The notes under the pieces were generated by a model. The model saw only the letters and a list, made by a program, of their open reading frames with translations, was not told the DNA's origin and ran no database searches. A stretch of DNA of 64,000 nucleotides from positions 33,527 to 97,526 of the forward strand of contig CAJXZB010000008.1 in the NCBI GenBank assembly GCA_913063405.1, given 5' to 3'. A program made the translations under genes and the position numbers. This document shows positions 26,115-27,272 of this stretch, one piece after another (the stretch's first letter is position 1; the number at the start of each line of letters is the position of its first letter). Origin of the DNA: an uncultured Ulvibacter sp. Lineage in GTDB: Bacteria > Bacteroidota > Bacteroidia > Flavobacteriales > Flavobacteriaceae.

Positions 26115-26122
26115 TAGTTTTG
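26115..26122 (+). promoter_or_regulatory. Bacteroidota -7 promoter box ahead of the yitT leader
   Basis: TAGTTTTG matches TAnnTTTG and ends 8 bases before the first leader ORF. No -33 element at normal spacing was seen. Confidence 0.45.
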
Positions 26123-26130
26123 CCATAGTT

Positions 26131-26193
26131 ATGAAACAAAACCGTCTACATAATACTATTTGTAAAATGAATTGGAAGTTTTCCAAGGCATAG
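26131..26193 (+). CDS. Possible 20-residue leader peptide (or non-coding start of a small RNA)
   Basis: ATG...TAG encodes MKQNRLHNTICKMNWKFSKA. The ATG is nearly at the predicted transcription start, so translation would be leaderless, or the region may be the 5' part of a roughly 125-nt RNA ending at the hairpin at 26218-26253. An inner hairpin TTGGAA/TTCCAA lies at 26172-26186. Coding status is unproven. Confidence 0.3.
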   Translation: MKQNRLHNTICKMNWKFSKA

Positions 26194-26217
26194 GACGTAG
26201 AATATATAAATATTATG

Positions 26218-26253
26218 AAAGCGTTCTTCCTTTAAAAGTTGAACGCTTTTTTT
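26218..26253 (+). terminator. Rho-independent terminator after the first short ORF
   Basis: A 9-bp stem AAAGCGTTC / GAACGCTTT with a 14-base loop runs into a T7 tract. Confidence 0.8.
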
Positions 26254-26270
26254 ATTAGTTAAATTTAAAG

Positions 26271-26351
26271 ATGAAGCAATTATTATCCATTTGTAGTATT
26301 TCTAAACGCATGTTTAATCATGCGCAGTTAAATATGCGACAAAGGGAATAG
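26271..26351 (+). CDS. Candidate 26-residue leader peptide of yitT
   Basis: ATG...TAG encodes MKQLLSICSISKRMFNHAQLNMRQRE. Its last codons (CGACAAAGGGAATAG) include the strand CAAAGGGA that can pair with TCCCTTTG of the downstream terminator. An upstream segment CGCATG (26307-26312) can pair with CATGCG just after it or with ATGCG at 26334. A ribosome position inside this ORF could therefore decide whether the terminator forms. No run of one amino acid codon is obvious, so the signal sensed is unknown. Confidence 0.4.
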   Translation: MKQLLSICSISKRMFNHAQLNMRQRE

Positions 26352-26410
26352 ATCTTATTTGAATAATATGTACTAATCCCTTTGATTTAAGTTAATCAAG
26401 GGGATTTTTT
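26340..26410 (+). promoter_or_regulatory. Candidate transcription attenuator (antiterminator/terminator) of yitT
   Basis: Two mutually exclusive pairings are visible. Antiterminator: CAAAGGGA (26340-26347) with TCCCTTTG (26377-26384), 8 bp. Terminator: AATCCCTTTGATT (26375-26387) with AATCAAGGGGATT (26394-26406), 13 bp with one G-U and a 6-base loop, followed by eight T. The terminator ends about 10 bases before the yitT ATG. Confidence 0.55.
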
Positions 26411-26420
26411 TTGAGGAATT

Positions 26421-27272
26421 ATGAGAAATATACTTACAATCAATTTTAAGAAAGAGAGGTTCATAGCAGAAGCTCTAAGCTACACTTGGGTTTTCTTAGG
26501 GTCATTGATTTTGGCCGTAGCCTATGTGCTTTTTATTATACCGCATCAATTAGTGCCAGGTGGAATTTTGGGGCTAAGTATTGTGGTAAATAATTTGACA
26601 CCATTAAGCGTTGGATTGGTTGCGTTGAGCATTAATATCCCATTATTGTTATGGGGAACGAAAGTCTTAGGTAGAAAGGTAGGTATTAAGACGGCTTTTT
26701 CTATGATATTGGTTTCATTGTTTATTGATCTATTTAGTTTTCTTACTGAAGGAAAAGCCTATGTTGACGATGTTCTAGTCTCTACACTTTTCGGTGGAGT
26801 GATAATTGGTGCTGCTGTGGCAATGGTTATGAACGCGGGTGCAACTACTGGAGGAAATGATATTTTGGTTAGAATTTTAGCCACAAAGATAAAATTGCCT
26901 TATAGTCAATTGATATTGATAATCGATGGGGCGATAATATTATTGGGAATTTTTGTTTTTGAAGATTTTACAATGGCTGCCTACAGTGTAATTGCAATTG
27001 TTGCAATAAGTAAAACGATAGATTACTACATCAAAAAATCCGTAAAGAACCGAACCGTTTTAGTTTTTTCCTCAAAGAACCTTTTAATTCAGGAGGAGCT
27101 TTTGAAAGGTGAAAACAGTGCTGATAGTATCTTAAAACTAATACATCACGATTCAAATGATAAACTAATTCTTGTGACTAAGAACAATAAGAAATTAGCA
27201 TCCTTGGAAAACATAATTTACAGTATAGATGAAAATGCTAGTGTTACTGTAATGGAGTCAAATAGTTTATAG
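26421..27272 (+). CDS. YitT family membrane protein
   Basis: The 283-aa protein has about five membrane segments in residues 15-200 (FLGSLILAVAYVLFIIPHQLVPGGILGLSIVVNNLT is the family-typical first unit; MNAGATTGGNDILVRIL the second) and a soluble C-terminal DUF2179 domain (about 205-283). YitT proteins are widespread, and their transport substrate is not established. Expression is probably controlled by the leader described upstream, since a strong terminator lies just before the start codon. The gene stands alone and converges with the amidohydrolase genes. Confidence 0.88.
   Translation: MRNILTINFKKERFIAEALSYTWVFLGSLILAVAYVLFIIPHQLVPGGILGLSIVVNNLTPLSVGLVALSINIPLLLWGTKVLGRKVGIKTAFSMILVSLFIDLFSFLTEGKAYVDDVLVSTLFGGVIIGAAVAMVMNAGATTGGNDILVRILATKIKLPYSQLILIIDGAIILLGIFVFEDFTMAAYSVIAIVAISKTIDYYIKKSVKNRTVLVFSSKNLLIQEELLKGENSADSILKLIHHDSNDKLILVTKNNKKLASLENIIYSIDENASVTVMESNSL

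Follow-up and report, generated by a model that had tools for sequence, protein, structure and literature searches.

Classical trp and his attenuators consist of a leader peptide and alternative antiterminator and terminator structures, as do the leaders described here upstream of yitT; these differ in having no conserved protector (1:2) pairing, so an untranslated yitT leader would also be expected to read through. Two short ORFs and attenuators in series, mgtM and mgtP, precede the mgtCBR transport operon of Salmonella, where one of them senses an amino acid through its codons (PMC3641672). The Salmonella units sense ATP and proline and are additive, whereas both yitT leaders carry the same candidate codon. 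Leader ORFs with Cys codons and proposed cysteine sensing have been described for cys operons of Mycobacterium and Propionibacterium and for cbs of Bifidobacterium; these contain runs of Cys codons and no terminator hairpins were found with them (PMC1262725), whereas in the yitT leaders the Cys codons stand singly, and intrinsic terminators and antiterminators are present.

Within Flavobacteriaceae, transcriptomics of F. psychrophilum gave clues for leader-peptide attenuation before amino-acid biosynthesis operons (PMC9723704). A covariance model of the first yitT leader unit (unit 1) produced seven matches at 101–122 bits, all at yitT loci, and a next tier at 45–52 bits that includes six leaders rich in Ile/Val codons (L038, L039, L042, L045, L046 and L048). 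The next long ORF was read by eye as IlvD in L039, L045, L046 and L048; for L038 and L042 the reading stopped short of the downstream gene. These flavobacterial leaders have the same build as those of yitT: an ORF of ~20 codons, a hairpin read at the corresponding place over its last codons, an antiterminator at the stop codon, and an intrinsic terminator. Three of them (L038, L042 and L045) also carry a second leader and terminator in tandem (1501 onward), and the other three have a single unit; Flavobacteriaceae may be prone to placing attenuators in tandem. The ilvD leaders differ in having many Ile/Val codons and a biosynthetic enzyme as target, whereas each yitT leader has only one to three Cys codons and precedes a membrane protein gene. 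Given the shared build and the F. psychrophilum clues, the yitT units would belong to a class already working in this family.

We analysed a 64,000-nt stretch of DNA from an uncultured marine Ulvibacter sp. (the window), in which two units of leader ORF plus terminator lie in series upstream of yitT, unit 1 at 26131–26253 and then unit 2 (Table 1). A sequence-only reading of the window had placed one attenuator before yitT. Our comparison supports an attenuator there and identifies two in series, with a single recognisable promoter before the first. The orthologue set comprised 20 YitT proteins from five Flavobacteriaceae genera, drawn from eight carriers among 400 genomes of the family plus genus searches; for the genus of the source genome the search set includes U. 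litoralis and U. antarcticus. Judged from these alignments, both units are highly likely to be tandem ribosome-mediated transcription attenuators, and very probably ribosome stalling, perhaps at cysteine codons, switches yitT on. As the earlier reading had supposed, no described attenuator for yitT was found in the literature searched, which includes few subscription papers.

Two leader units in series

Table 1 Features of the yitT leader region (window coordinates).
Feature	Position	Strand	Details
Promoter -7 element TAGTTTTG	26115..26122	+	Bacteroidota consensus TAnnTTTG; 8 nt before ORF1 ATG
Leader ORF1, 20 codons, MKQNRLHNTICKMNWKFSKA and stop	26131..26193	+	Frame open in 19/19 orthologues, other frames 0/19
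Hairpin UUGGAA/UUCCAA	26172..26186	+	Last ORF1 codons, between Cys codon and stop
Unit 1 antiterminator strand	26191..26198	+	Begins at ORF1 stop codon; partner 26221–26227
Unit 1 intrinsic terminator AAGCGTTC...GAACGCTT, U-run	26218..26253	+	Ahead of ORF2
Leader ORF2, 26 codons, MKQLLSICSISKRMFNHAQLNMRQRE and stop	26271..26351	+	Frame open in 20/20 orthologues, other frames 0/20
Unit 2 antiterminator strand	26340..26359	+	Last ORF2 codons, stop and beyond; partner 26365–26384
Unit 2 intrinsic terminator	26375..26412	+	Stem 26375–26406, 13 pairs (one G-U), loop 6, then T to 26412
yitT	26421..27272	+	PF02588, E = 4.5e-52, 176.9 bits (cut-off 24.3)

Unit 2 contains the 26-codon ORF that had been recognised from the sequence alone, and a 13-pair terminator stem was located where it had been claimed. 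The stem is not perfect, as one pair is G-U, and the terminator ends 8 nt before the yitT ATG. Shuffled sequence would be expected to yield 0.1 such terminator sites in the region, and one was found. The last ORF2 codons (CAAAGGGA, 26340–26347) do pair at eight of eight positions with the 5' arm of the terminator (TCCCTTTG, 26377–26384), and these segments belong, as its core, to a longer antiterminator whose arms of 20 nt each are 80% complementary (z = -3.9 for the segment in this window). Every one of the 20 orthologues gives this antiterminator as the MFE fold when its pre-terminator segment is folded (mean z -2.4). The columns of its core, CAAAG/CUUUG, are paired in 18 of 18 aligned sequences and the flanks are less regular; over the alignment 80% of cells are paired compared with 31–53% when the strands are slid, with no excess over shuffles. 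The terminator is paired in 100% of 214 cells, four of them changed on both sides, so both pairings proposed from this one genome persist among its relatives. Its arms AATCCCTTTGAT/ATCAAAGGGATT hardly change, with 8 of 12 pairs constant throughout, and the antiterminator partner varies more. Double pairing may not explain all of this near-invariance.

A third pairing, CGCAT with ATGCG, had completed a proposed 1:2, 2:3, 3:4 layout. It is present in this genome, inside a 12-bp hairpin (26307–26318 with 26327–26338), but is not kept in relatives, and no conserved protector pairing that would block the antiterminator was found in the orthologues. The antiterminator and terminator of the layout are thus upheld across orthologues, whereas its 1:2 pairing is specific to this genome, which leaves the classical four-segment scheme with a protector unsupported. 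A protector pairing is not required in all leader-peptide attenuators.

In unit 1 the Cys codon, UGU at 26161–26163, lies nine codons before the stop of ORF1. The hairpin that follows excludes the antiterminator strand and shows two-sided changes at three pairs across orthologues, a count that is too low because genus g170 carries the hairpin in a shifted register. The unit 1 antiterminator is paired in 98.2% of 112 cells (26–67% when slid), with no excess over shuffles and no two-sided changes, and is the MFE fold of the segment ending in the terminator 5' arm in all 19 sequences (mean z -2.5). For the terminator the figure is 99.3% of 144 cells, with two-sided changes at two pairs. In all units the antiterminator overlaps the stop codon or last codons and shares the terminator 5' arm. 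Antiterminator z-scores are moderate singly, and the weight we would give them lies in their consistency across 39 units.

The 145-nt leader of the window folds strongly (z = -4.25, with none of 200 shuffles as good). Together with the conserved unit 1 hairpin, this would fit a metabolite riboswitch or a protein-binding leader in which the ORFs are incidental, an explanation we regard as quite improbable. The stated ORF frame is open in 39/39 units and other frames in 0/39, and there is no conserved aptamer-like core; what stays invariant is the Cys codon region together with the antiterminator and the terminator. Rfam covariance models applied at gathering score to the whole window matched only a tRNA and no riboswitch or leader family.

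All 20 orthologues carry the promoter motif TAnnTTTG 7–10 nt upstream of the first leader ATG (30-nt search range; 2.8% in shuffles). In L009, the one orthologue without unit 1, it lies directly before unit 2. A candidate internal promoter before ORF2 (TAAATTTA) belongs to this genome, is not conserved in orthologues, and was rejected.

We propose that transcription would start from this single promoter a few bases before ORF1, and that in each unit the region of the stop codon, whose sequence complements the 5' arm of the next terminator, would act as the switch. If the ORFs are translated, a ribosome that has come to the stop codon would mask the antiterminator strand, the terminator would form, and transcription would end. 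A ribosome held ~9–12 codons upstream would leave the strand free, allowing the antiterminator to form and RNA polymerase to continue. With the usual ribosome footprint, a ribosome waiting at the Cys site would leave the antiterminator free and one at the stop codon would mask it. Full transcription of yitT would require that both terminators be passed, an AND arrangement.

Conservation across Flavobacteriaceae

Close orthologues of this YitT are rare (8/400 Flavobacteriaceae genomes), and the leader is found wherever they occur. Unit 2 is present, with both ORF and terminator, in 20/20 orthologues and unit 1 in 19/20, the exception being L009. A covariance model of unit 2 matches exactly the eight yitT carriers among the 400 genomes and nothing else, and in a second sample of 388 genomes it again matched carriers only. 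At the thresholds used, neither the unit 1 nor the unit 2 model revealed leaders shared with other genes. The gene neighbourhoods of yitT differ between genera, indicating that the leader accompanies yitT itself and is not a property of the locus. These comparisons bear on whether the arrangement arose by chance from an upstream small RNA or 3' terminator and a fortuitous ORF. The intergenic region is AT-rich, and short ORFs and terminators are common. However, every part is conserved in 20 genomes from five genera with different neighbouring genes, and co-occurrence with yitT is perfect. The comparative data thus refute chance, to which we assign only a vanishing likelihood.

The leader peptides vary freely in sequence. 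Over the three codon positions the substitutions number 106/133/118 in ORF1 and 235/277/333 in ORF2. The amino acids thus show no sign of purifying selection, which fits leaders whose translation counts rather than the peptide made. This is unlike an arrest sequence, and weighs against leaders that respond to a ribosome-targeting compound or to nascent-chain arrest, with YitT serving in tolerance or efflux. Such leaders do have parallels: ermB is preceded by two leader peptides in series (PMC8274638), and YitT-family missense changes occur in macrolide- and pristinamycin-selected mycoplasmas (PMC10240068, PMC13148045). The mycoplasma mutants, however, have several further mutations, including known 23S rRNA ones, and we consider a drug- or arrest-responsive leader improbable.

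In L008 and L102, ORF1 (..SICKMNW) resembles the first part of ORF2 (..SICKINK) in nucleotide sequence (ATTTGTAAGATNAAT), a likeness such as duplication of one unit would leave. ORF1 and ORF2 may be partly duplicated, and their evidence would then not be fully independent.

Candidate codons for sensing by the leaders

Of all residues, cysteine is the one that the conserved sites of the two ORFs have most in common. A UGU codon occupies this place in 18/19 copies of ORF1, 9–10 codons before the stop, and the MC site of ORF2 in 17/20, 9–12 codons before the stop; all 45 of the 45 leader Cys codons are UGU. The leader ORFs contain 4.5–4.9% Cys versus 0.58% in the proteins of the window (p about 1e-6 to 1e-7, one sequence per genus). 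Measured against random codons of matching base composition, which give about 2.6% Cys, the excess is marginal (p = 0.03–0.06, one sequence per genus). Some lineages have lost the first ORF2 Cys and kept the second.

Cysteine has been lost at the conserved site in four units: ORF1 of L093 (Ser) and ORF2 of L100 (Phe), of L009 (Arg) and of this window (Phe, with UUU at 26313–26315). The ORF2 of this window keeps only an earlier Cys codon (26292–26294), and the L093 and L100 units have no Cys codon at all. Such losses count against cysteine, since under an AND arrangement one would expect a unit that lacks the codon it senses to remain largely closed. Given these losses, cysteine is the likeliest cue on codon evidence at no better than about an even chance.

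The two units with no Cys codon, in L093 and L100, retain ORF, antiterminator and terminator, as might be expected if the attenuators are tandem but the stall is caused by another codon, such as the Lys or Ile beside Cys, or by general amino-acid shortage. In ORF1 the neighbouring Ile and Lys match Cys in conservation (18/19 each). At the ORF2 site, however, Lys and Ile are not kept (MCN, MCS, KCK) where Cys mostly is, and in L099 ORF1 both residues flanking Cys have changed (SICK to SKCQ) while UGU is kept. We consider a stall at other codons unlikely, though deserving of some weight. Tryptophan was rejected as the sensed residue: UGG is frequent in ORF1 but falls within the hairpin, one Ulvibacter and genus g170 lack it, and ORF2 has almost none.

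Returning to a stall at cysteine codons, the likeliest hold-up would be the UGU codon awaiting charged tRNA-Cys, so that cysteine shortage would turn yitT on, with YitT as a presumed importer of cysteine or of a related thiol or sulfur compound. Taken in full, from tandem attenuators in an AND arrangement and a stall at Cys codons to induction by cysteine shortage of a cysteine, thiol or sulfur importer, this is the reading that we somewhat favour from the comparative sequence evidence. More tentatively, and at rather less than even likelihood, we suggest that a tandem cysteine-sensing AND attenuator controls yitT and that this YitT subgroup is a cysteine/thiol importer induced by cysteine shortage.

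Links between yitT and sulfate-assimilation genes were sought by presence/absence, neighbourhood and shared leaders, and none was found; no Cys leaders were detected before cysH/cysD loci. Sulfur auxotrophy was rejected as the reason for a Cys importer, as PAPS-reductase-family genes are present in most carriers and in most same-genus non-carriers. Unlike most of its relatives, U. litoralis (L118, G002; 99% complete) has no PAPS-reductase-family gene and possibly lacks sulfate assimilation. This is not a pattern.

YitT and the significance of its leaders

The AlphaFold2 model of this YitT has a pLDDT of 80.8. Its C-terminal part resembles the DUF2179 structure 3hlu and the PII-like PstA, with TM to target of 0.54–0.74 at weak Foldseek E-values (0.08–0.3). 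No solved YitT relative was found by sequence, and by fold only this PII-like part resembles anything. No leader terminators were found before distant YitT homologues (22–29% identity) of Bacteroidota and Firmicutes. The genome studied here (G000) has a second, distant YitT-like gene on contig C19 (L005), with 23% identity and no leader terminator upstream.

The YitT family is widespread in many bacteria, and no substrate assignment for any of its members was found in the literature searched. Gene neighbours were discarded as a source of functional clues to yitT because they differ among genera. Regulatory codons of a leader that name a metabolite would offer such a clue, and if the cysteine reading is true, YitT would be a cysteine- or thiol-related importer. 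Leader-peptide attenuation in Flavobacteriaceae, noted for operons of amino-acid biosynthesis, would also come to include the gene of a membrane protein, and the conserved layout of two leaders in series raises the question of why two switches have been kept.
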